The position numbers and the translations under genes were made by a program. 64,000 nucleotides of DNA from Agarophyton chilense (lineage: Eukaryota; Rhodophyta; Florideophyceae; Gracilariales; Gracilariaceae), in NCBI GenBank assembly GCA_030374765.1, contig JARGXX010000071.1, positions 2,356,001 to 2,420,000 on the forward strand. Direction: 5' to 3'. The notes below the pieces were generated by a model. It ran no database searches and was not told where the DNA came from. It worked only from the letters and a program-made list of their open reading frames with translations. Shown here piece after piece: positions 5,291 through 62,416 of this stretch; position 1 is the first letter of the stretch; each line of letters opens with the position of its first letter.

Positions 5291-6787
5291 TCACACCGCA
5301 ACTGGCTCAGCAACTGGAGGAACGGCATACACTTCCTCCTCTGTGACCTTCTCCTCCTGGTCCAAAAGTTTTTCCTCTACACCATTGTCTCCAACGTAGT
5401 ACCCATCCGTGTCAACGTTGAATGAACTCATGAGAACAGTGAACGCAAGCGCGCCGAAGAAGTACACAGTGAGCACGATCGACACGGACAGCACCGCGAT
5501 ACCTGGCCATGATGTTTCCTGCCGTCCTTGCTCGTTGAAGTCAGGGTCGAAGATCAGTCCAAAGAAGAAGAACATGTCAAGGTTGCATCGATCCTCCTTG
5601 CCCTCACATTCCATTTGCACAAGGTGCAACACAAACATGAACGCCATCAACAGCACCCAGCCCACGCCGCTCGCCATCAACAACACCCGTCTCGATCTTC
5701 TCAACGGTTTCAGCAGACGCATGGTGCTTTCAAACAGGCACAGCACGGTGACAACAGACAAAACAAGAGAAAGCGTCATGGTGGTGACGCCGATCCAAGT
5801 GACATTCATGAGCGTGAACACAAACGCCACAAACGTGAACAGCAACGCACAAGCCGACAGTTGCTTCGCCAACGAGAGCATCTTGGAGCGCGATGCGCAA
5901 ACCAGTCGCCAATTGATGCAAATGAAGACGACGGCAATAATGAGCCAGTAGCCAAAGTACGTGGCCCACTCCACAAACGTGGGGGTGTCCTGGTATCCAA
6001 ACAGGGCGCGCAACATGGCAAAGAACTCGTTCTCCGAGTCATGGCAACAGCTCTTGGTTGACCACATGACAGCATTATACCAGTCGCGTTCCTCAGCCGG
6101 TTCCCAAGCGCCAAACCAATCCACTTCCTGCAGTTCATGGAAGGCATGACTGACCAGTCCCGCCGCAAACGCCATCAGCACAAAGCTGGACACCAGGAAG
6201 AACTTGAGGATATCCAATTGAAGCAGCCCCCGGAACACGAGGAATGACGCAGCGATGCCAACGACAATGGCGAGAATTCCCGGCAGCGGGATTGCGCGCC
6301 ACCCCCCGTTCTCATCGGCATTGGCGGTTCCAATGAGGAAGATGACCGTCTCGATACCCTCCCTTAGGACTTGCACGAACACCATGAGGAAGATGGCCAG
6401 CTTGCGTCGAAGCGGGCTCTTGTCGTCGTCATCGACGATGTGATCCACATGGGTCTCGAGTTTGGTGCGCAAATTCTTGCCCAGTACCATCATCCACACA
6501 ATCATCCACGTCAGCAGCGAGGCAGCCACCAGGAAGGTGATTCCCTCAAAGATCTTCTCGGCATCTTCCTTGAACAGCTGATCGCCCCTGGTCCACACAA
6601 CGATTCCGAACGCCAGCCCGACGGCAAGAGAGATGACAATTCCGCCGATGGCACCCCACCACACATATCGGCGGTACTGGGTGGCGCCGATCTTATTGAT
6701 GTAGGCGAGCACAATGCCGACGACGAGGCAGGCCTCCAGCACCTCCCGCAGCACAATGAAGAAGGCCGGGATCGAGAAGACACCCAT
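5291..6787 (-). CDS. FTR1: High-affinity iron permease, FTR1 family
   Basis: A plasma-membrane iron permease of 498 residues. In fungi and green algae, FTR1 works with a multicopper ferroxidase; none is visible in this window. Both hallmark REXXE motifs are present: REVLE at residues 14-18 in the first membrane helix, and REGIE near residue 142 (VLREGIETVIFLIG). At least seven hydrophobic segments are spread over the protein, with acidic loops (KEDAEK, VDDDDK) that could hold iron. The tail after the last helix is acidic and cytosolic-looking. The protein is longer than yeast Ftr1 (about 400 residues) because of an insertion with extra helices at about 280-420. The start codon lies 13 residues before the first REXXE motif, as the family requires. 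Confidence 0.93.
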   Translation of the reverse strand: MGVFSIPAFFIVLREVLEACLVVGIVLAYINKIGATQYRRYVWWGAIGGIVISLAVGLAFGIVVWTRGDQLFKEDAEKIFEGITFLVAASLLTWMIVWMMVLGKNLRTKLETHVDHIVDDDDKSPLRRKLAIFLMVFVQVLREGIETVIFLIGTANADENGGWRAIPLPGILAIVVGIAASFLVFRGLLQLDILKFFLVSSFVLMAFAAGLVSHAFHELQEVDWFGAWEPAEERDWYNAVMWSTKSCCHDSENEFFAMLRALFGYQDTPTFVEWATYFGYWLIIAVVFICINWRLVCASRSKMLSLAKQLSACALLFTFVAFVFTLMNVTWIGVTTMTLSLVLSVVTVLCLFESTMRLLKPLRRSRRVLLMASGVGWVLLMAFMFVLHLVQMECEGKEDRCNLDMFFFFGLIFDPDFNEQGRQETSWPGIAVLSVSIVLTVYFFGALAFTVLMSSFNVDTDGYYVGDNGVEEKLLDQEEKVTEEEVYAVPPVAEPVAV

Positions 6788-8388
6788 GACGATGCGGCTG
6801 CGGGGTATGCGGGGTATCTAGGTAGCTGTGCAGTTGGGCGGCGACGCACCGTTGGATGAGCAGCAGCGGTGCCGGGGGGCGCGGGAAGCTGGGCTGGAGA
6901 TGGGGCGGGCACGGACGCACAGTGCGAGGCACGGAGCTCCCCCCGCGGCAGCAACTGCGTGGTCTTGTGCTCCTTTTCAAGCGAGCTCGAGGTTGGAGGT
7001 CGGGAGGGGCGCGCGTCGCAGCGGAGACGCGAGGCGGCACCAACGGCGCGAGGGGCCGGTGACGGGCGGTGACGACGGGGCACGCCGCACGCGCGCGCGT
7101 GCGCCATTCGTGCGGCATTCGCGCCGAAGCGCGGCGCGGAGAGCAGACGCGTCGACGGCGCGGGGCGCGCTTTCCCGGCACGCGCCGCCGTCAGCGCCTT
7201 CGCCGCGCGAGGGCCACCACTGAGCTCCGCGCGCTGCGCGCCGCCCCCCGCGCCGTGTGCTCGTGCACGTGACTGGCGGCGGATCGCACCCAGCACGTGG
7301 TGCTTGTATTTGCGCGCCCCACTGCAACGCTTCCGCCAGACTGTGTGCCCGCCAATAAGTCGTCTATCGCTGTCAAAAGAGCGCTTTGGGTCACCGGCTT
7401 GCCGTGAAAGCTTCTGCCATGGAGCTTTGCGCGCTTTTGAGCCAAAATTGTGGGTGGCACTCGTCGTGCGAGCTTCTTGCGGACTGCCGCAGGAATGCGC
7501 GTGGCAATGCCGCCGAGCTCGAGCAGTCTGCAAAGAGCCCCGCTTTGGACCGCCCGTTGCTGTTGACGAGCGCTCCGTCGGTGCTCCTGATCGACTTCCA
7601 CAAACGCCGTGTTGCGTGGATGATATCATTCAAACTCGGATATTAGTCAAGCTCAGTGCGCTGTGAGTGGATCGATGATGCCTTATTGTGCTCACCTTGC
7701 ACCACCCCCGCCACCGACCTTGGCCCCAGGCAAGGTCCATTGGCGCGTTGTTGTAAGTTGCGTTGACGTAACGGTGCAAATTGCGGTGAGCCGGCGGCGG
7801 ATACACACGCGACCGTTTAGAGTTTTCTCTGCAGACTGTGATGAAGCGGGCGACAGCGCGTCACGCGCCAGTTCGCGAGCTCGGGGCCGCTCTCAAGGGT
7901 GTCAGGTGCGTCAAGTGTGACCGGCTGCACTGATTTGATGACGATGCCAGGGCCTTTCCAACCATGGCGGAATGCTGTACGTCGTGATTATGGTTGGTTT
8001 CACCGCTATCAACTACCCTTACAAGCTTCTGATTTTGCGATTGCAACTGCCCCGCTGCGCGTAACCTACGGTGATGGCGGTGTGATGTGCAAATGTTGGG
8101 GGGCTGGGAAGTATGCCTTCCGTAGGTTGACTACGATGTGCATTTGCGCAATCGGAGTTGCCCACACGTTGTCGATACTCCCCGGCTGTAAGCCGGCTCT
8201 GAAAACTACGTGTAAACAATTTACTGTTTCCATGTTCTCGCTGGATCCGTGACCAACATGAACACGTGGTATACGAGTTGGTCTGACGCTCAGAATGAGC
8301 TCGTGCTATGCTGCACCTCTTCGAACATTCCGCCAACGCCGGCGGCCATCAGAAGTTGCCGGCAGTCGCCTCGGGCACGGGGGAGAGA
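6788..8388. other. Divergent promoter region, GC-rich
   Basis: Lies between the iron permease gene (leftward) and the HIS3-type gene (rightward). The part from 6790 to 7300 is extremely CpG-rich and gives long open frames in several registers. These translate to Arg/Ala/Pro strings without domains, so I treat them as chance. From 7300 to 8388 the composition is ordinary and I see no gene. Iron-responsive elements cannot be recognised by eye here. Confidence 0.5.
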
Positions 8389-9210
8389 ATGTCAAAGGCC
8401 TCCATGGCTGCGATGAGGGCGCCTGGCTTTTGTGTGTACCCGCCGCTGTCGCGCGCTGTCTCGCGGCGGAAGGATCTCACGTCTTCCTCTCTAGCGCCGC
8501 GTGTTGCCCCGTTCTGTCTCTCATCTCCCCCCTCCACTCCCGCTCCGCCTTCCGCATCGCACGCCATCTCACACACATCGCGCCCGTCACGAACCGCTAC
8601 CGTCTCGCGCACCACCCGTGAAACGGCCATCACGCTCACGCTCAATGTCGATGGCACTGGCATCTGCGACGTAGAAACGGGCATTCCGTTTCTGGATCAC
8701 ATGCTTGCACAGCTTTGTTCCCATGGCCTTTTCGACCTTCACTTGCGCGCTAAGGGCGACTTGTGGATCGATGACCATCATACCAATGAAGACATTGCAA
8801 TCACGCTTGGAATGGCGCTTTCTAAAGCACTTGCTGATAAGAAGGGCATTCGTCGTTTCGGCCATTTTGTCGCTCCGCTGGACGAAAGCCTTGTGGAGGT
8901 TGTGCTGGACTTCTCGGGCCGTGGTCACTGTCAATACTCGCTAGATATTCCCACTCAGAGAGTTGGCACCTACGATACACAACTTGTGCGAGAGTTTTAT
9001 CATGCTGTTGCTGGAAATGCGCAGATGACTCTACATGTTATTCAACGAACTGGTATAAACAGCCATCATATTATCGAAGCCAGTTTTAAATCGTTTGCGA
9101 GAGCTATGCGAATGGCTGTGGAATATGATCCTAGAAGTATCAATACTATCCCAAGTTCCAAGGGCGTATTGACCGATGCTGCTGCGCTTGAATCCACCCC
9201 AAACGCCTAA
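8389..9210 (+). CDS. HIS3: Imidazoleglycerol-phosphate dehydratase, plastid-targeted
   Basis: Catalyses dehydration of imidazole-glycerol phosphate to imidazole-acetol phosphate in histidine biosynthesis. The catalytic core covers about residues 75-265. Visible family signatures are [12 protein letters not shown], the metal-binding [11 protein letters not shown] block near residue 128, the DFSGRG turn, and the C-terminal [15 protein letters not shown] block with its second metal-binding histidines. The first 70 residues are Ser/Ala/Arg-rich with few acids, like a plastid transit peptide, which is where this pathway usually sits in algae. The frame is open from an earlier ATG at 8308. I prefer 8389 ([13 protein letters not shown]) because the leader then looks canonical; 8404 is also possible. 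The gene ends 24 bases before the converging hydrolase gene. Confidence 0.95.
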
Positions 9211-9234
9211 TTTCTTTTTGGGGGTCCCATCCTC

Positions 9235-10428
9235 TCACTCATCCTTCTCTGAGTTTCTGCTTTGTGCCACCAGCCATTTTGTTACCTTGTCAACGTGCAT
9301 CGCCGAAAGTTCATGAGCTCCACGTACCACGCGTGCGATTTGCATCGCGCCTCTCTGCAATGAATTACTTGGCAGTTTGTTCGCTCTTAGTACTTCACCC
9401 AGTCGGTCTTCGTTTTGGCCAGCAGCTTCGTAAATCTGTTGGGATACTTTTTTTGTCAGAAGGGGTTCGTGCTCTCGGAATGTTGTGGCTGTGAAAGGAA
9501 CCTTCTGTAAAGAAAGTTCTCCTACCATGGAAACTTTTTTGCGAACCAGGATGTGACGAGAGGCTGCTATTGAAGAAGGTGGTGCGTAATAGCGATCAGA
9601 TGCCAGATGTACAAACAGCGTACTCGGATACTTGTTTGTTGCGTTGGTCAGCGCACGTTGGTTTCCAGCCGAGATGTAAAGAGCTTGACTCCCGATTGGT
9701 AGTTCCAATGACAAGATGCTCAGCAATGTGGCGCCAGATGAGACGCCTATAGCGATCAGAGGCGTTGATGGGGCTAATCCTTGTTCGGCTATCCACTGAC
9801 GTACAGCGACCTTGACTCGTGCTACATCCGCGTTCTCACGCCCAGGAAAGCGCGTGCTCCAACAGCGAGTCACACGGTTTTGAGAGGTAAGTGCTAGCAG
9901 TGCGAAACGCCTCTTGAGTAGATGGGAGCTTATAATCTTGTGTTCTGGCAGTTCAAACCAATCTTTGGCGGACTGAGAACATGCGTGGAATAGGAGCGCA
10001 AGCCCGCGAAGTGCTCGGGGTGTGAAGGGATTGTGGAACGCAATGTCCACATCTGCTAAGCGAGCTTCACGAAAGAGTGTTTGCGAACCTCGTGATGATG
10101 AAGATATGAAATCAGAAGAGAGGTCATCTTGTTTGGAAGAAGAGCGGAATGGCAGTACATGTGCGAACCACGTGGCGATACGCTTCAAGAAGTTTGGTTT
10201 CTCAACGGGTGAGGATCGGACCATTGGGTTCACGACTGCGTCCATTGCGTTGCTTTGATGAAACTTTTCTCTGCTCATGGTAGTTGAAGATAGAGTAGTC
10301 GGTTTTGAATCCAACAAGGAGTGCTCAGCCTGAGGTGAGGCATGTCCTATGGGGATCCATTTGCAAATTAAGGCAAGAACAAGGAATAGAATAATGTAAA
10401 TTCCTACGCATTTGGTGCCGGGATGCAT
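9235..10428 (-). CDS. Alpha/beta-hydrolase-fold protein with N-terminal membrane anchor
   Basis: A 397-residue protein whose residues about 8-28 form one hydrophobic helix, so it is a signal anchor or signal peptide and the rest lies outside or in the lumen. An alpha/beta-hydrolase fold is suggested by a LALLFHACSQSA strand-turn (oxyanion region) and a GVSSGA nucleophile elbow near residue 226 with the Ser in place. The GLxLLFHxCSxSAxDWFxLPE pattern resembles a plant and algal hydrolase family that carries HGC and GLPEE motifs. A late histidine in RGAHELS could complete the triad. Substrate unknown. It converges on the HIS3-type gene with very little 3' spacing. Confidence 0.75.
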   Translation of the reverse strand: MHPGTKCVGIYIILFLVLALICKWIPIGHASPQAEHSLLDSKPTTLSSTTMSREKFHQSNAMDAVVNPMVRSSPVEKPNFLKRIATWFAHVLPFRSSSKQDDLSSDFISSSSRGSQTLFREARLADVDIAFHNPFTPRALRGLALLFHACSQSAKDWFELPEHKIISSHLLKRRFALLALTSQNRVTRCWSTRFPGRENADVARVKVAVRQWIAEQGLAPSTPLIAIGVSSGATLLSILSLELPIGSQALYISAGNQRALTNATNKYPSTLFVHLASDRYYAPPSSIAASRHILVRKKVSMVGELSLQKVPFTATTFREHEPLLTKKVSQQIYEAAGQNEDRLGEVLRANKLPSNSLQRGAMQIARVVRGAHELSAMHVDKVTKWLVAQSRNSEKDE

Positions 10429-48015: not shown

Positions 48016-50273
48016 TGACTCACGTCTGTAGATGAGTGGAAGCACAGGCGAGGTGAAAGCAGTGACGTGTTCCCGCAGCAAGAGCGTCACGGCTCTAAGT
48101 GTGCATCAACAAAGGAATCCCAGGGAAGGTGAGATTCCTCAGGAGGGGTGGCTTTACGGCTTTAAGGTTGCGATTCCCCCCCCGCCATCTACTATCTCCC
48201 AGCTGTGGTTTTTGGAGTGCGTCCAGTCGATGATGTGGGAGGAAGAGGTTGGCGATGGCAGCAGTGCGCGCAGGTCTTCGAAAGGCCTTTTGTTGGGTGC
48301 AGATCTGTTTTTGCAAGTGAAAAAATTCAAATGCATAGCGAGGCCGGCCTCCAATGTGGCGTGCGCGACGCGTAAGAATAGCTCTCGGATCTGATCCACA
48401 CATGGGCGGCACCGCCGGCGGTATACAAGTTCGATGGCAGTTCGCGGAAGGTCAGCGAGGTCCCCGGCTTGCCTTTCTCCTTCACAGCGTCCCCATCACT
48501 TGGCTTAAGGCTTACTTCTGGCATGGTCAAACGAATAAGATTACCGGTGTTTTTACATCGTAACTCTACAAAATATCTACTCCACCCACCGAATTTAGCA
48601 TAAACCAGTTGACCGCTACCAATATTTTTGCAAAAGCAAAAAAAGTTGAGATAAAAGTCTCTCGCTAAAACCGTAATTGATGTATAAGAGATGGCTGCAC
48701 TCACACCCCAGAATTTTTTTCAAACACCACGATGGTGGTAGGTTGGTTGTCGGTTAGTCTATGCCTCCTTCACTCGGGAATAAGGGTTTTTATTGTACCA
48801 GAAGGCAAAGAATCTATTGTACTGTAATGTCTACACTGTCCTGTGCCACAAGATAATTATTCCAAAATTTACGAATTAAATATTTGGTGGTCGCAACGCA
48901 AAAGTTTACAGTAGTATAGTGCTATTCAATTAATCCTAAATCTTAATTTTTCTTTGAAGTATTCATTTTAATGTACACTTGTGTATAGTTGTGAAGACTC
49001 ACGGGGAATAGAGCGCTGCTGTAATGACTGTCAGCATGCCGCTCGTCCTGGCCGCGCGGCGCATTTAAGCACGCCGGAGCAGCCGAGACGCGCGTCGCCT
49101 ATACCGGTATGTCTTTCTCTCTCCCCCACCTCTCCCCTACACAGTGTACCGAGTCAACATGTCAATTCTCTCTCCGAGAATCTGCAATTCTTCCAGTCAA
49201 CGAAAATCTTACTTTCGTCGATATCCTTAAATTTCAGTAAACAGTACATTTGTCTTCATCTCTTAATATTCGTTACCCGTAGGTATGCCACGTGGTGTAT
49301 TTGGATGATTTCCGGCATACACCGTGAACTACAATTGTTTATTTAGCAATTAGCCTAGCTTTTTGCTAATTTAGTATTATTTAGATAAGAGTAAGTGGAT
49401 AGGGAGGCGCACTTCAAGTGCACCCCCTCTTGGCCACGTGGCAAGAAGCGCCACCGTAGATCAAGTGGCTGGTGAGATATATATCTTCACCAAGCATGGC
49501 CACCTCTGTCACTATTGTAAAAACAAGTACCTACTAGACTACTACTTTTACACCTTTTGGTTTCTACAGTCCACCATGATGAAAATCCAGTGTCCAAACG
49601 GTTTACAGGATCTACGAGAGGTTTTCATAATCGTCTACCATCTTTTTCTCATTGACGGTGGCTAGTAGTTGCTGCTGCCACATTTTAAGGCTATTTTAAC
49701 ACTCCTCCAACAATGTTGGTCGAATCCCGCGCTACCTAGGTGCTTGAAGTCTTACAATTCTTTTACCATTTTCGTTTATACCACATTTTGATTTCTTGAC
49801 TTTAAAATTGGTGTTCATCACGTTTAAATTTTTTTAAGAAGAATTTGAAAATTTATGCGGACCATGAATTGAAATATACACTGTAACAGCCACTTCTGGC
49901 TTATTTAATTATCTTAATAGACCAATCATCGGAAAATACATTGAAGAGCGTCACTAAAGCACTTAGTGCACTAGTTGGTGGTATTCCTCCATGCAAAAGA
50001 CTTGCAAAACCACTGTTTGACAACGTGGAGGAATTTTTTCGAAAACAAAGAATTATTCAGTGCAATACAAAAAGTAAAAAGACAACAAGTCCTTTGATAG
50101 AAACTTGACATAACAATGTTATAAATCCAAAATCAAAAACGCCTGGATTCGGTTTGAATATCGTTTTATTAACCCGTGTGTTGCTTGATCGGGTTTATTA
50201 AGCAGAGATGGATCGTATGTCGGTATTTATCATCAATTACATCTAAAACGAGATAAGAAGACAATTCGACCAA
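48016..50273. other. Boundary region: possible broken gene, then AT-rich gene-free DNA
   Basis: From 48154 to about 48700 the minus strand has two overlapping open frames whose products look protein-like (for example TFRELPSNLYTAGG in one, DQIRELFLRVAHATLE in the other), as if one gene had been broken by a frameshift. I know no family for them. From about 48710 the DNA turns AT-rich and contains no supported gene. A GCCACGTGGC palindrome occurs at 49433-49442. This marks the edge of the retrotransposon-rich part of the window. Confidence 0.4.
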
Positions 50274-51156
50274 TTGGGGATGCTATTCTTACAGAATCAT
50301 GATATCTGCCAACCCCAAGTAAGGGCGAAAGCAACCACCGTCAAGATGGAGGCCATAGTCTCTTTTCAAAATATTCATGGTATTTTCGGTGATCTCAAAA
50401 CCAACATTACTATTTCGAAAACTATTGAAAATTCACACGATCGAAATCTAGGAGATACAGAGTCTCCGGTTCTTGAAGGCCTAGGTTTTTATTACCTACC
50501 GAAACCTGTTGGTATAGCTGCGCAGAAAACCGTTGGTGGAGGCTTTTGTGGTAGAGATGGGTCTTCAAACTCGGAAAAAGAGCAAAACCGACGACCATTT
50601 AGTAAGGAAAAGAAGAAACCCAAAAAGGCAAACGGATAGGTGCACCGGTCGGACACTGAATCTTTGAGCTCGGAAACCGAATCAGGTTGGTCAACGGATG
50701 AAAGCGGAAAATATTCATGGAAACGCATGAAGAATTCTCGTCGTAAGAAGAGTAAAAATAACTGCAAATGTAAGACCAAACGGTATGATTCGTCGGAGTT
50801 AGATTTCGACAGCGATTCCGACCTACAGGTGATCTTTCCTTTGAACAACCTTTTTAAAAGAGTATTCTCCGAGAAACCTCCTTGATATACTCAGATATTT
50901 TGCTCTCTAAGTTTATAAAAGAGGTTGCTCAAAAGATAACTAAGCATCACCGGAAGCGTTGTTTCCAGATGAGAGATACCCGTTTTTCGGGAGATGAACC
51001 CATCCTTATCATAGACTTCTTTCAGAGGTTCAAGATAGATTGTGACCAAAACAGGTCTTCAGAAGATGCCGCGATGTGGCTATTTCAGTTTTACCTCAAA
51101 AACTAGACCGGTGACATGTTACACAGCCGTGTACAGGGCTACACCATGGCAGTGGA
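50274..51156 (+). pseudogene. Decayed Gypsy-type gag of an older element, first part
   Basis: Three broken frames on the plus strand (ending at 50639, 50885 and 51108) align by eye with the gag of the minus-strand element at 59.6-61.8 kb. In the same order they show a basic Lys/Arg run, a Ser/Asp/Glu stretch, then a helical block. That block ends RSSEDAAMWLFQFYL here against HEGAALYLFQFSL in the other copy. Stops and frameshifts show it is dead. It is interrupted at 51156 by a solo LTR. No LTR of its own could be found upstream; the similarity may begin as early as about 49.9 kb. Confidence 0.65.
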
Positions 51157-51789
51157 TGTCTTACAATCACCTCTGGGGTATGCTACTGTCTTGTCTTGGC
51201 AGAGTGGTGACGCTCAACCGTAAGGAGCGTGGTGACGCTCAACCTTAGAAGGTAGACGTAATAAACCTCGATGGTAACAGGACACCGTGAAACCCCGCAG
51301 GGGCAAACGGCGGGGCAACTAGCCTATACCGTGTATGTTAACGATGGTAGGCGTCGACGCGCGGGAAAACCTGTGTGGTAGTTGACAAACGATGAACCAA
51401 AAGGTATAGTCGTGACCCAAGTGGTGCCTGTCTTTATCAGATTAGGATGGGAGAGGTGCAGTTCCCTATATGCAGTGGACTGCACTCTCCAGAGCACCCG
51501 GTAGGTGCCAGCAAGGCACGGTCTCTGACCTAGTGTCAGAGACCTGGCCAGCACTGGCTACAGTGCCAGGTGGCCACGCCACTACTGTACTAAAATAAAG
51601 ATAATTACAATTACAATTACTAAAAGTTACTCAACCAGAAGGTGCATGTCAGTACTAGACGTGGCTGACAACACCTAGATGGTAGCCCGCCCGGAGCTGC
51701 ATGGCCGATGATCCCTAGCATCCATCACCTACAAGGTCAGTGTAGTATATTGACAACCTCAAAGGCCAGTCTTCCGCCACTATACGACA
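51157..51789. mobile_element. Solo LTR with 5-bp target-site duplication
   Basis: A 633-bp sequence starting TGTCTTAC and ending TACGACA, flanked on both sides by GTGGA (51152-51156 and 51790-51794). If it and one GTGGA copy are skipped, the gag alignment runs on without a break (MAVDDKQTEIM against HVDAQDREIL in the other element). That is strong evidence for a precise insertion. It contains an AATAAA-like stretch near 51594. It is longer than, and not clearly the same family as, the 445-bp LTRs nearby. Confidence 0.75.
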
Positions 51790-52296
51790 GTGGATGATAA
51801 ACAGACAGAAATTATGACTACATACACACAGCTGGTGATATTCTTATGAAAACCTATGCAACCGATGAGGTGATTCAAGAAGCCTACTCTGAGGTGCTCA
51901 CACACCGTCGGCGAGTAGTACAAACCGAATTAGATTATGGAAGCTCATTCTGAGAGACGGCGTACCCATGCGGTAGCGTTTTTACTACGACAAGGTTGAC
52001 GTCAATTTATGCTAGACAAACCAGTAATGTCTCAGGTATGGAATTACCTTTGTACAAACCATAAGGAGGCTTACAACGCCCTGGCGCGTATTGCACAGGA
52101 CATATGGGATATGATACGAACAGTAAAGAAGAGTTTGGCTCCCACATCGAAAAAAATAAAGGATAAACCGAAACGGTCAGATTTTGGCATCGAAGAAACA
52201 TTTACGACCGATGATGGATCAGCTGGACACACATTTTATAGGTCAGCGATTCATCTGATTAACACCTCTCAAGTCGGGTAATATTCGCTTCCCACC
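51790..52296 (+). pseudogene. Decayed Gypsy-type gag of the older element, second part
   Basis: Resumes the gag similarity after the solo LTR. It includes a block reading LMKTYATDEVIQEA here against LLETYAADDVIMDA in the minus-strand element. A later frame (52009-52281) matches the segment with FTTDDGSAGHTFY against FTESDMNASLHY. Frameshifts and stops occur. It is cut at 52297 by the larger Gypsy element, so the remainder should resume after 62416. Confidence 0.6.
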
Positions 52297-52741
52297 TGTA
52301 ACGCAATGACTGGTAGGTCAGCGTACTGGTCTCAACCTGCGGTTGCGTGGTAGAGCGAGTCCTAAGGTTTGTATCCTTGACAGCGGCACTCTCAGAGTAC
52401 TTGGTGCAATGGGCTGAAGTTTACTGCGTAATCCTACAGGTTGGAGCTACGAAAACGATGGCTTGAAGACCAATTGGTGGAACTAATGTACCTTAGGGGG
52501 TAACTTAGTATCCTAACGGTGCCTCCCTGATTCTAAGGGAGAAGCGTCACTCCGGCCAAGTAAATATTGAAGGAGAGGCGCTGGAATCTCCCTGGCACTG
52601 TAAAGCTATCCTATTATAAAAAATACAATTCTCAATTATCTAAATTTGTCCAGCGAAGGTCGGCCAGTCCACTTGGCGTCTGCAAGATATCTCAGGCTCC
52701 GGCGGCTTAAAAAGCTCAACCGTTATACTTGCTCATTCACA
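52297..52741 (-). repeat. 3' LTR of the Gypsy element
   Basis: 445 bp, same orientation as the copy at 61971-62416 and similar over its whole length. The first 100 bases show about 13 differences; later parts are more divergent. TG and CA termini are intact. Confidence 0.85.
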
Positions 52742-52755
52742 TATCTCCCTACTTA
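52742..52755 (-). other. Candidate polypurine tract
   Basis: Immediately inside the 3' LTR. The minus strand reads taagtagggagata, a purine-rich stretch in the position expected for plus-strand DNA priming. Confidence 0.5.
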
Positions 52756-53226
52756 GGATTCGACCGTCATGGCGAAGTCCAAATTGCCTCACACCTTCCT
52801 GACGGTCTGCGTCTAATTGGAACTATAGGCGAACCTCTACTCTTGCCATCGGGGCTGGAAAGTCGTGATCCTCAGCGTCTTAATGGCCTGGACACGAGCG
52901 GTGCCGTGTTCGATACGTCGGCGTCTTATGACCAATCCGGGGGTTAGTTGCTCTCGTTACCAGTGGGCGCGACGGGGCGTCGCATGGCCACCGTCCTCGG
53001 TGGTACCAGTGCGTATGAGCTGAGCCTTGGCGTCAGGTTGGCAATTAATTCACCTAAGGTACTGTACGCGCACCAAGGGGGGGTCCTTGCCGCTTTTTTT
53101 ATCCTTAGCTATTCCTTTGGCGACCCTACGCGCGTCGTCCGTCATCAACCACGCCGCGCGCTTCGTCCATTCGGGGTCACGTCGGTCATTCTGCCGGATT
53201 CGGTTTAATCTTCCCTTCTTCCCGTC

Positions 53227-55416
53227 GTGCTATTCCTCCATTGGTCGCGTGCGATGCCGTACTCGCCTTATAAACCCGTCGGATACGTCACTCTCCCTCC
53301 GGACTTTTTCGCTTCCGTCGGTTCCCCTATCCATTTCCCGGTGGACCAACCTGTAGGAAGCGGTTCCATGGCTTCGAACAACCAAGCGGGGAGTTTCTCG
53401 GGATACAAAATGGATTATGAGCGCCCCAAAGCGCGCTGTGACCATATCATGGGACGAAATTTGCGGGCCGTGCGTCTTGCCATTCTGCCATCCTCTTTGG
53501 AAGAATACCAGAGGTTTTGTCATGTGTATCTCGATTCCCGGAGTTTAGCTTAGATCACCGATTTCCGGAGGGGCAGTAAGGACGCGCGCAACGTCTCGTG
53601 GTATAACCTTTGGTTGCCATGTCCTGTGATTCCGTGTTCGGCGACGTTCTGTCGCACCCTCATCCAAGCGAACATGCCGTACGTTCGTTGTGAGTAGGAA
53701 GCCTAGTACCAGTTCAGGGTGAAAAAACTCCTCTCAGGCCTGTACGAGGACTTCAGTTCGCCTCAGATCAGATTTCCTCCGACGGGTTACAACCTCTTGG
53801 CGCTCATGTGCTTCAGACCGCCTTACGACGACCGGTTTTGGATGTCCAATAGGGTCTATTGAAACGAGATGCATGACCTCGATGTTCGTTTGCGTCAATC
53901 CCTGGAGTTTTTCTTCTGTTGGCACCAGGTGGAGTTTCACGACATGAACGCAGACAAACGTCCTCCGTTATGTCTCTCGCTTCCCCGCGTCGATGACAAC
54001 CAATGGGCCCTGTACTGGCGTATCGTCCTGCTCATTTTAGTTCCCACGCCGTCCGTAGTGGCGTACCACTCGTCACAACTCATGATCGATGACAATGACC
54101 GAAACTACTGGTTATCCTGGCAGGTACTCTCCTTTGAGTTCGGCGTGAAGTCCCTTATGGACCTCCTGGATACCCCGAAGTACGAAGTCCGTGGTAATGT
54201 CCGTTCGGATGATTGGAGGGTATGGCACGAAGAGCACATACCCGGTCCTCGAGGTCGTCTAGTCCCGTGTCCGGACATCATGGTCGGTTTGCTGAGGAAC
54301 CTGGGCATCCATAATATCGTTCGAGGGGCCCAGTTAGCCGTCCAGGAGGCCGTGGCCCTTTTGGATCATGTACTACAAGTAGAGGGGAGCAAGACTCCCG
54401 GGTTTCTTTTGTATGACCACGATACCGACTCGTTCACGCCAATTCCGCTACATCCACAGGGTCGGGATGAAACTCGTGTCGATCTCTCCAAGCCTTTGAA
54501 GAATCAACCATCGGACATTCCTAGGTGTCATGTGCCTCAGTCTTATCCGAACTCCATCGGTTTCGATACCCTGTGCTTCGAGCCTGACTTGGAAGCCAAG
54601 CCGTTGGTTCCTGCTGGTATGTCCGATGGAGAATACTTCGGTGGAAACCCCTTCATCTTTCCCGTGTAGGGCCTCAATCCTACGGTCGAGTCCGCTGTTG
54701 TGTTGCCGACCACTTTCCCTCCTCCAGTTTGTCCAGGCGCTGCTCCTCACGATGAACTCTCATATGAGCCACCGGTCGCTCAAGTGTACATCCCCCACGG
54801 CGAGTTTACTGTCGAAGCCGAAAGCCCTGTTCGTGATGCGATGGATCAGAAGTCCCCTGTGGGCGTAAACATCGCTCCGTCCTCTCCATCGTCTCATTTT
54901 CCCGCTTCGGTCACGACTGCAGCCAAGGATTTTCGTCATGTCTGCCGTACTGTTGGTATTACTGCCTCTATTGACATTGCGAGAGTCCTGAAGGAAGCTT
55001 GCTCCTGGGTGCGTCACTTGGCGCGCTACGCCGCGGTTGTTCAACAGGGTCAGGATCTGAAGACCTCTATGGTCAAGCTCCTGCTGCAGAATGCACAAAT
55101 GATGTCCCAGAGGGTTACTGCAGACATAGATGCCCAGTTTGGTCTGAATTTGAGCTACCGGGAGGCGTCTGAGGGTGACAATAGTTCTTCAGGTGAATCT
55201 CCGCCGAAGAAGCGTGCTGCAATCGCTGGTGCCCGTCCTATTGGTACAGTGGGACCCTTAGTTGCCCGTAGCCCTTCTTTCGTTGCTGCAGGTTCCAACG
55301 AGGGCGGCGGAGTTACTCTTGCGCCGCCTCAGTCAGTCCTGTTGGTGTTCGGAGCGCTTTTGCGAACCTTGACGTCATGGCAAGGGCTGTTCTGCCCCTG
55401 CTGTCAAATCAAATAA
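53227..55416 (+). pseudogene. Antisense accessory reading frame of the Gypsy element (decayed)
   Basis: On the strand opposite to gag-pol, one frame stays open from 53227 to the TAA at 55414-55416, apart from five in-frame stops (TAG at 53551, 53695, 53704 and 54667; TGA at 53860). About 730 codons remain. The product looks like real protein: aromatic-rich and ordered (YWLSWQVLSFEFGVKSLMDLL), then a Pro/Ser linker, a helical segment (ARVLKEACSWVRHLARYAAVV) and a basic PPKKRA patch. An AATAAA overlaps the stop codon. The frame may begin at 53254 or 53369, or further upstream, where two more stops occur (52945, 53206). I recognise no family. Antisense ORFs between integrase and the 3' LTR are known from some plant Gypsy elements. 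Confidence 0.65.
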
Positions 55417-55815
55417 AGTAATGCTTGTGCGATCCCAAAGTTTCTCCTGTATTCTTCCAATTTGTGTGCCCCGAGACGGCGTTCGAACCTTGAGAGCTTC
55501 TCAGGTCTTCCTCAGGTGTCGCTTGAGGACTGAAGTTGTTCTCTGATTCGGGTGCTACGGCGAACCGTCGTGTCTGAAGGCGTATCGAGAGCGTTTTGGG
55601 AGACGTTTTGGTATTATTCGGGCGAATGGTTGCCCCCCCTGAAGGCTGCGCTCTATGCTTCTGATTTTGCGCCAATATCGGGCGATAAAATTAGCCGGAA
55701 TGGTCTAAGGATGTTGCCAAGTGTTTTTTTCAGGAGAGTATCCTAACCAACGGAGGCGATTGCGCATTTTCCCATCTTCTCCTCGACCGGCGGAGATAAT
55801 TCGTTCAAGATTGTA
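55417..55815. other. Spacer between convergent integrase and antisense frame
   Basis: About 400 bases inside the Gypsy element, between the 3' end of the antisense frame and the 3' end of integrase. No gene seen; it may hold both polyadenylation regions. Confidence 0.4.
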
Positions 55816-57011
55816 TTACTGTCGGTATTCTTCCTCCGGAAGGACAATGTGGTCCAGAGAGGCGAATGCATCGGAGTCGGTGGGGAGCGATGGGTGGTAG
55901 TAGTTGGCATTGACCATCGTGTCCGTGGGGCTAGTCGAGTCCTCGGGAACTGCCTTAGGGGGTGTGGAGACTTGATCGTTGACCTGAGGTCGTGGTGCTT
56001 CCGTTGGGCCAGGGGACTGGGACGTTCTTGGTACGGAGGAACTAGGAGCTCGTGTCACGCGGTCAATAGACACGGTGTTCTGTAGGCCGTCAATGAGTAA
56101 CGTGATGGTGTGTTCATTGGCCTTAAGGACTGTGTATGGTCCCGTTGAGGGGGGTAAGAGCTTCCGCGTAGTGTCCTCGAGTTTTTTCACTGTCCTCCGG
56201 TGGCCGATCCAGGCAAACCAGATCTCCTTTCCCAAAGGTCTGTGTGTTCTAAACGGCTTTGTCTAAATTGATCTTGTAGCGCTGTTGGGCTTTGGTTAGT
56301 ACAGTTCTGGCCGATTGGAGAGTGCGGTCAATGCGTGGGCGCGAGTAGCGCTTCGCCTGGGTAGGATTCATCCCTTCGGTTATGCCCTAAGGCATGATAG
56401 ACTCCTGAAGGTCAACAGCTATCGGCGACGGCGCTCTCTTTAGCGTTAAGTCAAAAGGCGTTGTACCTGTGGAAGCGTGCTCCTGCGAGTGAGTTGTGGG
56501 CATTAAAAAAAGGCTCAACGTAGTCGTCCAAGACCAATTGGTGCTCCGAAACGTAGTGCGCCAATCGGTTCAGAAAGGTGCGGTGGATGCGTTCGGCTCG
56601 GCCATTGGTGTGCGGGTGGCAGGCGGTGGTGGTCACATGTTTGATTCCTAAGGTAGCACAAACGTGTGAGAAGAATTTGGATACAAACAGGCTGCCGTTA
56701 TCCGTAAGGAGGTAGAGTGGTGTGCAATATGGATATACCCAGTGGGACAAGAAGGACGTGGCGACATCCGGGGCTGGTGTCTTCCCGAGGGGTAGGGCTC
56801 GGGTAAGTTCGGTAAACCTATAGGTTACAACCAAAACAAACCGTTTCCCACTAGAAGACTTCGGCAAAGGCCCAAGTATATCCACTGCGACAAATTTCAT
56901 CAGACCTGCGGCGGGGAAGAGCTTATATTTGGCCTGATGGTTGGGGCGAGACCCCCGGATCTGTGCGCACGATGCATAGTTCCGTGCGGTTTCCCATAGC
57001 TCCTGCGCCAT
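55816..57011 (-). pseudogene. Integrase of the Gypsy element (broken)
   Basis: The catalytic core (57011-56451) has the D,D-35-E residues in context: AVDILGPLP, LLTDNGSLF and HPHTNGRAERIHR. The N-terminal zinc-finger region begins further upstream (to about 57150) and is decayed. After a frameshift, the C-terminal part (56235-55816) has GPYTVLKANEHTITLLIDG, the SH3-like DNA-binding fold, followed by a Pro/Ser/Thr tail. Core and tail are in different frames, so the gene is dead. There is no chromodomain with the usual aromatic cage. Confidence 0.82.
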
Positions 57012-57174
57012 TAGTGGCCAGAAGAAAAACTTCCCAGGTGAGGGAAATGGGCGAGGTATAGGAGTCGCGCCCTTGGTGAAGTTGGTATTACTCGTTGCAA
57101 TGTGCCATCTAGCCGTGAGCGGCGACTGAGTAGTCCAATTCGGTCAAAGACGAATAGGCATCCAGGGGTTCTTA

Positions 57175-57387
57175 CTAATCGGGCTGTTTCCTTGCAGTAC
57201 TCGTCTTCGACCTGAGGCTGTAGGAGTTCCTCAATAGTGATAGGGAGGAGCTCTTTTCCTCCGGGGCTATCGCGTTAACCTGAGGTGTAGTCGAGTTGGG
57301 CGGTACTGTGTTCCAATTTAATAGGTCTACTTTTTTCTCCTTTACCTCAGGATCCTCCGATTTTATCTTACCCATAAGGTCATTCAT
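57175..57387 (-). pseudogene. Linker between RNase H and integrase of the Gypsy element
   Basis: In the same frame as the RNase H segment, a Lys/Ser/Thr-rich stretch without a domain, separated from it by a stop codon. It corresponds to the variable linker of Gypsy polyproteins. Confidence 0.5.
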
Positions 57388-58797
57388 TTACGAATAGTCT
57401 TGTTGTCTATCTTCTGTAAAGGGGGTAGGAAAGAGGTCGTCCAATGGAGTGTCGTCATTTCCGTCGGTAATTATTCGCGAAAGGTCATCCGCTGCCTGGT
57501 GCTTGATGCCTGGCCTATAGGTTATCTCGTAGTCATATTCGGAGAACCTGAGGCGCCACCTAGCGAGGAGGCTCGATGCATCGGTCATATTGAGTAACCA
57601 GCGAAGTGAATCATGGTCTGTTGAAATGGTAAACCTGGTTCCCGCTAGGTACGGACGGATTGTCAATACAGACCATACGATGGCTAGACATTCCTTTTCA
57701 GTCGTACTGTAGTTTCACTCCGCGCTGATGATCGTTTTGCTCCAGCAGCGAATAGGTCGATAGTCCTTCGGTGACTCCTGTTCCTGTAGCAGTGTACAAC
57801 TTACTAGCACATCAGAGGCATCTGCATCCAGGACGAAATCCCTATCGGGCTTTAGTAAAGCCAATATGGTTTGGTTCAGCAATTTGTCTTTTAGGGTCTG
57901 AAATGCCTCGAACTGGTCGTCCGTAAGGGCTTCGAACTCCGAAGCTGTTCCGTTTTTCAGCATCGCGTTAAGAGGGGCCTGGATCTTTGAAAACCCTTGC
58001 ACGAACAGTCTGTAGACTTTGCCCAAGATTTCGAAGGATCTTAGTTCTGTGTGGGTCCTAGAAGGCTTAGACTGGCAATTCGCATTTGTGGTCCGTGTGG
58101 CCACCTTTAAATTTCCTGGGAGGACGACGTGACCTAGATAGTCCACTGGGGCCTGGAAGAAAGTGCATTTGCGGAGTTTCAGTTTTACTCTATCGTCCTG
58201 TAGGATTTTTAACACCTTCTTCACGTGGAGAAGGTGTTCCTTTACGGTCCATGAGAAGATTATAACTTCATCCAAATAGACCCGGGCGGATTTCCATTTG
58301 ACTCTGAACAGTATAATGTCCATTACCCGTTGGAAAGTGGCTGGTGCATTCTTCCAACCAAAGGGAATGCGAGTAAATCTGAACAGACCTTCATGGGTGG
58401 TAAAGGTTGTCAGCGCTCTCGCGTCGTCGGCCAAAGGGATTTTCCAGTATCCAGAGTTAGCTTCCAGTGTGGTAAATACGACAGCTTCGCCGAAGCAATC
58501 CAGACAGTCGTCCATGCGGGATATCGGGTTTGAGTCCCTCTTGGTTACTGCGTTTAGCTTCCAGTAGTCTACACAGAACCTGACGGAGCCATCTTTCTTC
58601 GCCACGAGGACAGGGGGACTTGCCCATTCGGATTGGTTTGGAGACGCCGTCTGTATGAATTGAGCTTTGCGCATCTTGTCCATCTGGTCGGCGACCATTT
58701 CCCTATCCTTAAGGCCGGTACAGCATGGGTGCTGGAACTGTGGGCTAGCATCATTTTGAAGGTCAATGCGGTGTGTAGTGGATTTGATTGTGCCCAA
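57388..58797 (-). pseudogene. Reverse transcriptase and RNase H of the Gypsy element (broken)
   Basis: RT blocks are clear: SEWASPPVLVAKKDGSVRFCVDY, FTTLEANSGYWKIP, FTRIPFGWKNAPATFQRVMD. The catalytic box reads YLDE where Gypsy enzymes have YLDD. RNase H begins at FVLDADASD, the TDASD-like motif. An in-frame TGA at 57715 interrupts it, and it resumes with NYSTTEKECLAIVW, FTISTDHDSLRWL and HQAADDLSR. The stop lies where an Arg codon is usual (ERNYS), so a CGA-to-TGA change is likely. The changed catalytic residue and the stop show loss of function. Upstream of 58797 the frame shifts. Confidence 0.88.
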
Positions 58798-58958
58798 TCT
58801 ACCTCATCACATAGCCTGATATCTTCGAGGAGATCAAGTATCTGGGTCCTATAGGATTCGAATTCTGCGCCGATAGAGACCGTCCCCTCCCAAGAGTTGG
58901 CGTCCGCGTCAAGAGGTGGCGTCGCAAGGTTATCTACTTTCCTTACAAGATCTTAGGA

Positions 58959-59582
58959 CTAGTAATGGACCGATACAGCAATTTGGGTCATCGGGGGTAT
59001 CGTTATGGCCTTTGACAGGCGAACCTTATTGGAATTCGTGTTTTCGGAGACAACCGCTCGTTTGCGGTTCGCTTCTGGCCCTGGGGCGGAACCAGTTATG
59101 GAGATGAACGGTGCGCGGTAGAACGCGACTTTCGTAAGGCCTGGATAAATGGCCTTAATGTATCGGCCGATATACGAGGTCCCTAAGCTTGCTTCAGAGC
59201 CTAAGTTAGGACATACAAGGAACCACGTGCGGACTTTGCATTTTCCTGCCTGGAGGTAAAGTGGTACTTTCTCTTTAATGTCCATCGGTCTACGTGGTGC
59301 ATCGGTAATCCTTGAGGTCTTCCTTGCCTGAACGAAATCTTGCCAACCCAGTGGTAGTAGCTTAAAATAGACCAAATTGGGATCAGCACCTATGTCCAAC
59401 ACAGCTGTGTTCACTTGAAAGTTGTTGGAACGAAGTCCTATGGTTACTCGAGCTTTATAGTTCTCTTTCCTGAGGATACAGACGGGATTTTTACTGTGTT
59501 CCAGTTGTGGTTCATCCTGAATGGTCCATTGTGGGAGGTTCGTATTGGGAGGGGAGGAACTCTTTGGCTGATGACCGTCCAA
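58959..59582 (-). pseudogene. Retropepsin-type protease region of the Gypsy element
   Basis: An aspartic protease core is visible as AVLDIGADPNLV, where the usual motif is LDTGA; the Thr to Ile change fits a C-to-T mutation. A later ILV-G flap-like block is weak. The region lies in a different frame from both gag and RT, so it was either joined by frameshifting or broken by indels. Confidence 0.65.
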
Positions 59583-59632
59583 TTGGTTAAGGCAGGGGCA
59601 TAAAGAGGGAGGATTTGCACCGCGCCGTCCCT

Positions 59633-61765
59633 CTAGCAGTTTTCCGATGGGGTTTCCGTTTTTTCCTGAGGATAGGGTTCTTCCACGGGCTCGTCCATAG
59701 GATCTACAATAGCGTAAACCTGTGGGGCTTTGATCGCAGTATCCGGGGGCGTGGAATAGCGTGAGCTTTCAGGGATCCCTATGGTTCGTTGCTGCGCCCT
59801 GTTATACATTCCTTCGGATCTTCGCATCCGGTAAATCTCTTCCCTTAGGGCTACGAGGTTTTTGCGTGCGTCCTCAAGCAGATACCTCGTACATTCACAA
59901 GGTTGGGTCACGGAATGGCAAAGGAAGCAAGCCCTTGGGGAGCGAACAAAAACGTCCTTGCTGGGCGGAAAGGGAGAATACTTGGGTGTGGGTGGCCCAG
60001 GGGTCGCTGTAGTTCCCTGGGAGGTATATGATGGGGGCCCGGACGAAGTAGCACTGAAATTGACGGCGAGGACATCTCCCGAACTGGCGTAATGGAGTGA
60101 TGCATTCATGTCCGACTCAGTGAAGCTAACCAATTGGGCTTGGTTGGGTTGACGCAATGAAGTTGCGTGTATTCTGGTTAAATTAGCGTCGCGCCTGGAG
60201 GTCCTGTAGGTTTTTCCATAACCCTCGGCGTAGGTAACGAGCCTTCGGAAGGAGTATTGCGGGTTTTTTGTGTGGTAATTGCGCACATGTGTCCGAATGG
60301 CAGGGACCATTCCTGAGATGAAGTGGCGTTTAAGCCATCCTTCGGAGATAACGTTTCCACATCAGTAAACCTTCTTCCATAGGTCGACTGCCAAAGCCGA
60401 TTCGGTCATTTTGGAGCTCTGTCTAAAAAATACTACTTCCTTGTGGGCATCCATTATAACGTCATCCGCGGCGTAGGTCTCCAGGAGGTAATGAACAACC
60501 TGATGGTATGACCTGAGGATCTCACGGTCTTGAGCATCCACGTGGTCAGTTGTGCCAGATATCTTCCAAACCACTCGATCAAGCACCTGTCCTGTAAGGG
60601 AGAATTGGAAAAGGTACAGAGCAGCGCCCTCGTGGACACCGTTCTGATCGCAGGCCGTACGGAACAAACTGAGAAATCTAAGGACAGCAATGGGGTCGGA
60701 ACTCGAGAACTTCTCCGTAATGGTTAGTTGCATCCGTTTGGCCCATTTGGCGACTCTGCGAGCCACCGAACCAGAATATTTCGCGGACCTGTCGGCCAGT
60801 CGGTAGTTCTGGTAATCTAGACCCTTGAGGAAACGTTTGTTGGTGGTTGTCAGTTGTCTGAGGCCTCGAACGGCAGCTTCATCTACTTCCCAGTCAGTCG
60901 TTTCGGTCGAAGCCGATTCAGAATCACTCGTGTTTGAATGGTCTCTTCTTTTGCTACTTCTTTTCTTCTTTCTCCTGCGGTTGCTTCTTTTCTTTCCAGT
61001 GGAATAGGGACCTAAAGGATCGATCTCTCTATCAGATCCGATGGAGCCCTGAGGTCGCTGTACCTCATATAATCCGTTGGGTGGGGCAAGTGGTCTATCT
61101 TCTAGACACGGAGTTTCTCTTCTTCTCCTCGCTTGTCCCTCCCTTGGATTCTCCTGATGGGCAACCTGTGTCTCATCTAAACGCGGAGCTTCTCTTCTGC
61201 TCCTAGATTGTCCCACCATGGGGTTTTTCTGATGGTATTCCCGGCGAGGGGCGGATCACGCCACCACTCCTGGGAGTTCGGTAGGGAGCTGCCATATGGA
61301 AGCCGGATGGTTGACATGTGGAGTGGTCCTAGGGACCGTGTTGCCTGACTGGCTGGTGACTTCTCCTTGAACGGCCTGAATGAGGGAGTCTAAGAATAGC
61401 TCAGTCTCCATGACCGTGGGGACGATTCGCGTAACAAGGTAATCCGTATGGTCAGTGATAACCGTGGCGAGTGGCATTTGCACAATGGAATCCACATGGG
61501 CTGAGCAGAGCTCACGGAGACGAGGCCAGAGAAGGTCGGCACGTCCGGCGGGAAAACTCTCTCTAATTCCTTCGGTCTTACGGGGTCCTCCTTGTGGTGT
61601 TCCCGGCCTAGAGGCGGCCCTGGTGAGGCGTTCTCGTAAACGCGCTGCTACTGTGGGGTCCCGGCGAATCCTTTCAGGGTCGTCGATGCGAGTCAGTACT
61701 TCTTGGGGCTGGCTTCTCGTGCTCCTGCGGTCGCTAACATTATAAACATGAGGTTCAGGCGACAT
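59633..61765 (-). pseudogene. Gag polyprotein of the Gypsy element (two in-frame stops)
   Basis: One frame with TGA stops at 61256 and 60362. It holds an N-terminal Arg/Pro-rich part, a helical part with VDSIVQMPLATVITDHTDY, a Lys/Arg run (RRRKKKRSSKRR), the conserved helical capsid-like block with ALYLFQFSLTGQVLD, and near the end a Cys cluster CFLCHSVTQPCEC that may be a zinc knuckle. Both stops can be explained by CGA to TGA changes. It matches the decayed plus-strand gag at 50.3-52.3 kb. Confidence 0.75.
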
Positions 61766-61951
61766 CGTTGTCGTTGTAGTGGCAGCTGTTCCTCCTGCCT
61801 TGGGAGTCCTATGGTCGGGTCGGTTGGGTGTGTTTCATGCATCCATAATGGCGTTTGCTTCTGTACTTCTGGTCCGTTGGGGAATTGAACCAAAGGTTAG
61901 AATCCGGATAATTCTTCGTTTCAGTGGTCCGTTCAATTATTGCAAAGGTTT

Positions 61952-61967
61952 CTGAGTCGGGAGACCA
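61952..61967 (-). other. Candidate primer-binding site
   Basis: Three bases inside the 5' LTR, the minus strand begins TGGTCTCCCGACTCAG, with the TGG that would pair with a tRNA CCA end. I cannot name the tRNA. Confidence 0.5.
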
Positions 61968-61970
61968 AAA

Positions 61971-62416
61971 TGTAACGCAATGACTGTTTGGTCAGCGTAC
62001 GGGTCTCAACCGGTGGTAGCGTGGTAGAGCGCGTCTTAAGGTTCGAATTCTTGACAGTGGCACTCCCAGAGTACTTGGTGCAATGAGCTGGCGTTTACTG
62101 CGTAGTCCTACAGTTTAGAGCTACGGAAACGATGGCTTGAAGACCAAAGGGTGGAGCTAATATACCAAAGGGGGTTATTTAGTATCATAACGGTGCCTAC
62201 CTAACTCTAAGGGAGAAGCGTCACCCGAGCCAAGTAAATTGTACTGGCGAGGTGCGGGGATCTCCCTGGCACTGTAATGCTAATCTTTTACACTAATTAA
62301 AATAAATTATTAAACTACATGAGTCTACCTGAGGTCGACTCGTCCACGTGTCCCCTGTAGGATACCTCAGGGCCTGGCGCCTTACAGGGCTCAACCGCTA
62401 TCATCGCTTCTTCACA
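61971..62416 (-). repeat. 5' LTR of the Gypsy element
   Basis: 446 bp, partner of the 52297-52741 copy. It includes a tRNA-like pair of boxes at 62014-62050 (see the findings). Termini TG and CA are intact. Confidence 0.85.

Follow-up and report, generated by a model that had tools for sequence, protein, structure and literature searches.

An antisense accessory gene between pol and the 3' long terminal repeat of Ty3/Gypsy elements in the red alga Agarophyton chilense

The antisense frame and its element

We analysed 64,000 nucleotides of the Agarophyton chilense genome (NCBI GenBank assembly GCA_030374765.1, contig JARGXX010000071.1, positions 2,356,001 to 2,420,000 of the forward strand), here called the window. 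At 52297-62416 the window holds a decayed copy of a Ty3/Gypsy long terminal repeat (LTR) retrotransposon, which reads leftward. A plus-strand frame lies between its integrase and its 3' LTR, antisense to gag-pol, and related frames are found at the same place in four element families, which we call A (the family of the window copy), B, C and D. We show that the frame codes for a protein and is an accessory gene in a Ty3/Gypsy lineage of red algae. The features of the gene are followed by those of the element:

53254..55335, plus strand: antisense accessory gene in its family limits, decayed here (conserved start and stop, selection)
53863..54669, plus strand: longest open piece, with most of the conserved core (at least 144 genome matches)
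54670..55416, plus strand: second open piece, with the Pro-rich acidic linker and the C-terminal part (at least 150 genome matches); 55336-55416 lies past the family's end
55201..55215, plus strand: basic patch PPKKR, nuclear-localisation-like (KKR in 16 of 20 A copies)
55412..55417, plus strand: AATAAA, which may signal the 3' end of the antisense transcript (an exact match in 11 of 20 copies)
52297..52741, minus strand: 3' LTR, 445 bp, direct repeat with 61971-62270, ends TG...CA
52742..52754, minus strand: purine tract adjoining the 3' LTR, polypurine-tract-like, read from the sequence
55816..57143, minus strand: integrase region, two open pieces (55816-56262 and 56451-57143), rve match below cut-off
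57388..58803, minus strand: reverse transcriptase and RNase H (RVT_1 94.9 bits, RT_RNaseH_2 51.9 bits)
58959..61834, minus strand: gag and protease region, open pieces, assigned by position alone
61952..61967, minus strand: primer-binding-like stretch adjoining the 5' LTR, read from the sequence
61971..62416, minus strand: 5' LTR, direct repeat with the 3' LTR

An initial annotation of the window had pointed to a plus-strand frame with five stops, and this frame is real. Over 53254-55332 it has 5 stops in 693 codons (at 53551, 53695, 53704, 53860 and 54667), against 22, 28, 13, 28 and 28 in the remaining five frames, and 1000 base shuffles of the region gave a mean of 25.6 stops and a minimum of 12. 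Both of its proposed limits had to be moved. The start had been placed just inside the 3' LTR, while the actual start is the ATG at 53254, 512 bp inward from the LTR, which is present in 14 of the 16 copies (among the 20 of the family A set) that reach this site. The end had been placed on the frame's own AATAAA. The family ends at 55333-55335, where 18 of 20 copies have a stop codon; the window copy lacks this stop and reads through 27 codons to the TAA within AATAAA, an end peculiar to this copy. An exact AATAAA occurs in 11 of 20 copies, which may be no more than decay would leave, and we rejected AATAAA as proof of the gene end.

The element was assigned to Ty3/Gypsy by its LTR pair together with RVT_1 and RT_RNaseH_2, and the full order of reverse transcriptase (RT), RNase H and integrase was seen in the family B copy L036. 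Open reading frames and Pfam matches in the window agree with the annotated leftward reading of gag-pol on the minus strand, where it is fragmented into open pieces. The integrase core is in the piece 56451-57143 (rve 29.3 bits, Pfam cut-off 32.6). The piece 55816-56262 had no Pfam match, and the gag and protease region had none above the cut-off. The window LTRs are 85% identical across the 300 bp aligned, and by this measure the copy is old. No target duplication was evident in its flanks by reading.

Copies in the genome and their link to pol

The two open pieces were searched separately in the A. chilense genome (79.8 Mb), and 144 and 150 of the 733 candidates of each search were scored, so that the counts are lower bounds. 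All 144 places scored for 53863-54669 and all 150 for 54670-55416 matched, at 60-73% identity to the window pieces, the window itself aside. Twenty-five of the 144 places, window included, are free of stops over the first piece. L033 is open across the gene (748 codons between stops, 682 residues from the ATG) and so is L034 (698 codons). The NCBI A. chilense protein P0001 is 100% identical across its 418 residues to one genome place.

Among 19 distinct A copies (22 loci), 15 have the C-terminal part of integrase encoded downstream of the gene on the opposite strand; in L012, L013, L017 and L024 it was not found within the stretch examined. The wider 10-kb context was read for 2 of the 20 A copies. 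The annotated position of the antisense gene, between integrase and the 3' LTR, is borne out by this linkage and by related frames in three further families. Homologues are present in other copies of the element family, with the window itself among the 144 or more matched places, and for family A we found none that stands alone as a host gene.

The A copy L034, whose accessory gene is open, is flanked by LTR fragments in inverted orientation and by an inverted copy of its 5' part (1-1095 and 8742-10000).

Purifying selection on the family A protein

To the window copy we added 19 loci, and the 20 copies were aligned to one of them. L009 and L021 (both the window itself, which was counted once), L023 (the L015 copy), L030 (the same as L010) and L025 (a near-duplicate of L024) were left out. 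The codon-position test used columns with at least 12 copies.

Changes common to at least three copies, which therefore arose during element multiplication, were distributed 124:84:254 over codon positions 1:2:3, with an omega of 0.23. Private changes, seen in a single copy, were spread as 544:524:539; their transitions gave an omega of 0.97 and their transversions one of 0.89, with stops at about the neutral rate. Omega was 0.967 for changes in one copy, 0.598 in two, 0.278 in three or four and 0.112 in five to ten, and leaving out one copy at a time gave 0.19-0.21. In shifted frames the shared changes gave 1.4-2.5, the 3' flank was flat (30:29:34) and no codon-position bias was seen upstream of the ATG. 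Constraint was strongest in codons 150-300 (omega 0.10) and weakest in codons 560-683 (0.39). The low shared omega together with nearly neutral private changes shows that purifying selection acted on the family A protein during multiplication of the element, and that copies decayed neutrally after insertion. It is the protein that selection maintains, not an antisense RNA alone. Family A thus separates cleanly selection before insertion from neutral decay afterward.

Related genes in families B, C and D

The 769-residue protein P0004 is 35% identical to the L033 protein over 51% of the latter, and P0009 (300 residues) is 56% identical to P0004 across 278 residues. Family B was found via P0004, with 12 matches at 44-48% identity to it. 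The B copy L036 has LTRs differing at 8 sites in 571 bp, a 5-bp target duplication (ATCCA), an antisense frame of 852 codons and a pol frame of 1085 codons with a terminal chromodomain; unlike L035, it gave no protease match. Among ten full-length B copies, six have no stop. All ten B copies read carry TATTTAAG about 110 bp ahead of the start codon, and nine of the ten have ACCATGG. In L035 (5126-5393) and L036 (5299-5629), tandem repeats occupy part of the region from the accessory gene to pol. Two decayed places in genome G000, C13:983282 and C68:1681383, are 46% and 44% identical to P0004 and 37% and 36% identical to the B protein; they are perhaps remnants of another family closer to P0004.

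In the RT tree, L048, from a tandem array on contig C5, groups with A and B (support 1.0). Its antisense frame faces pol and matches the A/B core weakly but colinearly (7.1 bits). With L048 as the query we obtained 40 matches of family C at 87-100% identity, several of which are open over 615 codons, together with 57 matches of family D at 35-39%. In the D copy L055 an antisense frame of 640 codons faces a pol that is 44-49% identical to the B pol. When D was searched in turn, all 71 scored matches were full length, at 94-100% identity, and 42 were stop-free. No LTR pair was seen in the C and D loci examined. A purine tract follows a CA border 104 bp (C) and 81 bp (D) ahead of the start codon, and where LTRs were confirmed the start-to-LTR distance is 393 bp (B) and 512 bp (A). 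A chromodomain scored above the cut-off of 25.1 bits at the integrase end in B (31.9 bits) and in the A copy L034 (27.0 bits). The match in C (22.9 bits) fell below it, and Pfam gave none in the window integrase piece, in the pol of L048 or in those D pieces that were scanned.

Five family C copies stand head to tail on contig C5 (65 kb) with an exact spacing of 9734 bp, and two on C78 of G000. Such regular tandem LTR elements are unusual; they may have a circular or unequal-recombination origin, or be an assembly effect.

By sequence comparison the accessory proteins are clearly homologous within A-B and within C-D; a direct match of C with D stands at about 1e-20. Profiles of the two pairs matched over 265 columns with P 4.6e-5 and a probability of 69%, and the reversed control gave P 0.45. 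The RT tree pairs the families in the same way, with a support of 0.88 for A-B and for C-D, and sets the four-family clade apart from seven other Gypsy loci. The simplest reading is a single acquisition before the families parted, followed by inheritance with pol. For the other Gypsy clades, L047 was the sole locus examined and had no match to the accessory profile. Two minus-strand frames beyond its pol with hydrophobic stretches (5427-5996 and 6473-7087) were considered as another accessory gene and rejected, with no profile match and no Pfam match.

Derivatives of family B that lack the gene

Some B elements have lost much of the gene. Six matches begin at residue 712 of the B protein, on contigs C111, C97, C10 (two), C28 and C121, which gives at least six places. 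The one such derivative read, L046, lacks codons 1-711, with the junction within the TATTTAAG box; the stretch of its pol that was examined (residues 442-1085) is 96% identical and has one stop. Another six places, on C13 (two), C95, C68 (two) and C100, are split at residues 300 and 546. The one split copy read, L045, is without accessory codons 300-545 and pol residues 156-785 and is non-autonomous. Derivatives without the gene have multiplied, so the gene is not required in cis and either acts in trans or is dispensable.

Protein features and database searches

After a conserved core, the proteins continue with an acidic, Pro-rich linker and close with a C-terminal part that bears basic patches. 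RCxEE.DY, WHxVEF, TPPVxAY, YAEW, GRLLPLP and TPGFLW are common to the cores of A, B and P0004. The basic features of the C-terminal part are the KKR of A, an Arg-rich tail in B, an Arg-Gly tail in P0004 and VKRPK in C. A membrane segment is usually called at a hydropathy of 1.6; the best 19-residue values were 1.8 (A), 1.5 and 1.4 (B) and 1.6 (P0004), with no common segment that is clearly membrane-like. An env-like gene was rejected on this ground and on the antisense orientation.

Pfam scans of the A, B, C and D proteins, P0004 and P0009 gave nothing above cut-off, only chance-like weak matches, and none to TRP28 (PF04195). Neither bZIP nor a known silencing suppressor was matched in the accessory proteins. 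A PF04195 search of the genome was also blank, which is weak evidence since its control was blank too. Among solved structures there was no match by sequence, and the best by profile was a ribosomal protein (E 0.84). The initial annotation had likewise recognised no relative. Scans of viral_contigs and genome_contigs found none either, and a search of about 5.8 billion proteins returned only A. chilense proteins with P0004 and P0009 among the candidates scored. We found no homologue outside elements; P0004 and P0009 are known as protein sequences only.

Proposed function and alternatives

We propose, and give it an even chance, that the gene encodes a nuclear protein which regulates, in trans, the expression of its own element. 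Transcription would start at a promoter in the 3' LTR or next to it, which we propose because of TATTTAAG and ACCATGG at the B genes; it would proceed against gag-pol, and the antisense transcript would end short of pol. The product would be a mainly soluble protein, probably nuclear in view of the KKR patch in A and the Arg-rich tail in B. It may act on the expression of its element in the manner of Grande GENE23 or HBZ of human T-lymphotropic virus 1 (HTLV-1); action in trans is suggested by the derivatives L045 and L046.

Several observations weigh against this proposal. The nuclear-localisation-like patches are short motifs, and by the patterns used P0004 has none. A TATA-like box upstream of the gene was absent in five of six A copies examined, and in the sixth it lies 15 bp before the start. 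The L046-type elements occupy six or more places without most of the gene, which may mean that it is dispensable. The ten B copies show no clear constraint by themselves (shared changes 7:13:11, omega 0.65 and 0.58), because there are only 31 shared changes. The C-terminus of integrase, taken as a control for selection, was weak (omega 0.84 and 0.51), and it was rejected as a strong control since the reference frame is broken. Between the A-B and C-D pairs, homology is of moderate strength.

A doubtful but possible alternative is that the protein counters host silencing, by chromatin or small RNA. Plant DNA transposons encode anti-silencing proteins, which would be a parallel. The chromodomain integrases of B and L034 would suit such a factor, as would the young and numerous D copies, every scored one with a full-length frame. 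The chromodomain match is below cut-off in C and missing from the D pieces scanned, and the proteins do not match a known suppressor in Pfam. A replication cofactor, that is a nucleic-acid chaperone, packaging or nuclear-import protein for the element's RNA or cDNA and not a factor in transcription, seems unlikely. The basic C-terminal tails of B and P0004 would fit it, and retroviral accessory factors are discussed in PMC7264820, yet elements outside the clade manage without the gene and derivatives lacking it have multiplied, though these could borrow the product. Wider in scope, and in our opinion rather improbable, is a scenario in which a non-TRP28 protein family entered a red-algal chromovirus clade a single time, at its base, and was from then on inherited with pol as an antisense-encoded nuclear anti-silencing factor acting in trans, an independent red-algal invention of the HBZ/GENE23 type whose product the gene-less derivatives borrow.

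The remaining explanations fare far worse. Full-length sense RNA would hold the complement of the gene, and a role for antisense RNA through double-stranded RNA with the genomic transcript is discussed in PMC7264820; that this RNA is the functional product and the open frame incidental is very unlikely, as codon selection is confined to one frame and protein similarity is kept between families. For family A the one-frame selection rejects RNA as the sole function, and an additional RNA role is possible. Besides a regulator and a silencing suppressor, the initial annotation had considered a captured host gene. Such a gene, or a separate mobile element nested inside, is equally improbable and lacks an independent host homologue: the antisense orientation is unusual among element genes, but among the candidates scored the protein search reached only A. 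chilense, P0004 and P0009, and all four families, which split as RT does, have the gene in one and the same position. A chance open frame might be suspected from the five stops of the window copy, but it is refuted by the genome matches to both pieces, the selection in A and the full-length D matches, and we give it practically no weight.

Comparison with known antisense genes

Among LTR elements, antisense accessory genes have been described most fully for the Retand type of flowering plants. PMC11963269 (Vicient 2025) places Retand in a non-chromovirus lineage of flowering plants and reports antisense coding regions in all recently active clusters, with TRP28 in 97% of clusters. The Grande protein is nuclear and has its own promoter (PMC7264820, Vicient and Casacuberta). 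As in Retand, Grande and RIRE2 aORF-3R, the A. chilense gene is antisense between pol and the 3' LTR, in many copies and without a homologue outside elements, and the pol-to-LTR region is long. This region has tandem repeats in half of the Retand elements, according to PMC11963269, and also in family B. Unlike the Retand antisense frames, which are mostly TRP28, the proteins here have no TRP28 match, although a distant shared fold is possible. The host is a red alga and not a flowering plant, and a chromodomain is present in B and one A copy. With Grande GENE23 the comparison is one of motifs, the KKR patch and the TATTTAAG of B.

HBZ of HTLV-1, to which other retroviral antisense genes are related, is likewise an antisense gene toward the 3' LTR, and a nuclear regulator (PMC11963269). 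The accessory protein is far longer than HBZ and has no bZIP or other Pfam match. Family B resembles chromoviruses in its RT, RNase H, integrase and terminal chromodomain, and chromoviruses include red-algal members, as mentioned in PMC3605345. Boty of Botrytis is a fungal element with an antisense frame (PMC7264820); the likeness is that of an antisense frame outside plants. Our literature search, which covered few subscription journals, turned up no antisense accessory gene that a chromovirus clade shares, and none in red algae.

The gene thus resembles those of Retand and Grande or HBZ in manner, yet it is a different protein in a different lineage. The architecture was already known; within the reach of our searches there is no precedent for this protein family, for the host phylum and element lineage, or for such a gene in four families. 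The same architecture is now seen in a red-algal lineage, some members of which have a chromodomain, with a protein that matches no known family. If the origin is independent, an antisense gene has come more than once to this one place, and place and orientation would matter to the element. Stop-free copies in B, C and D make expression and localisation directly testable in a cultivated seaweed.

Sequence beside the window element

On the plus strand at 50247-52281, beside the 3' LTR, open pieces resemble the gag of the element by eye (for example around DQN...FQF). They are perhaps another element or a gag relative.
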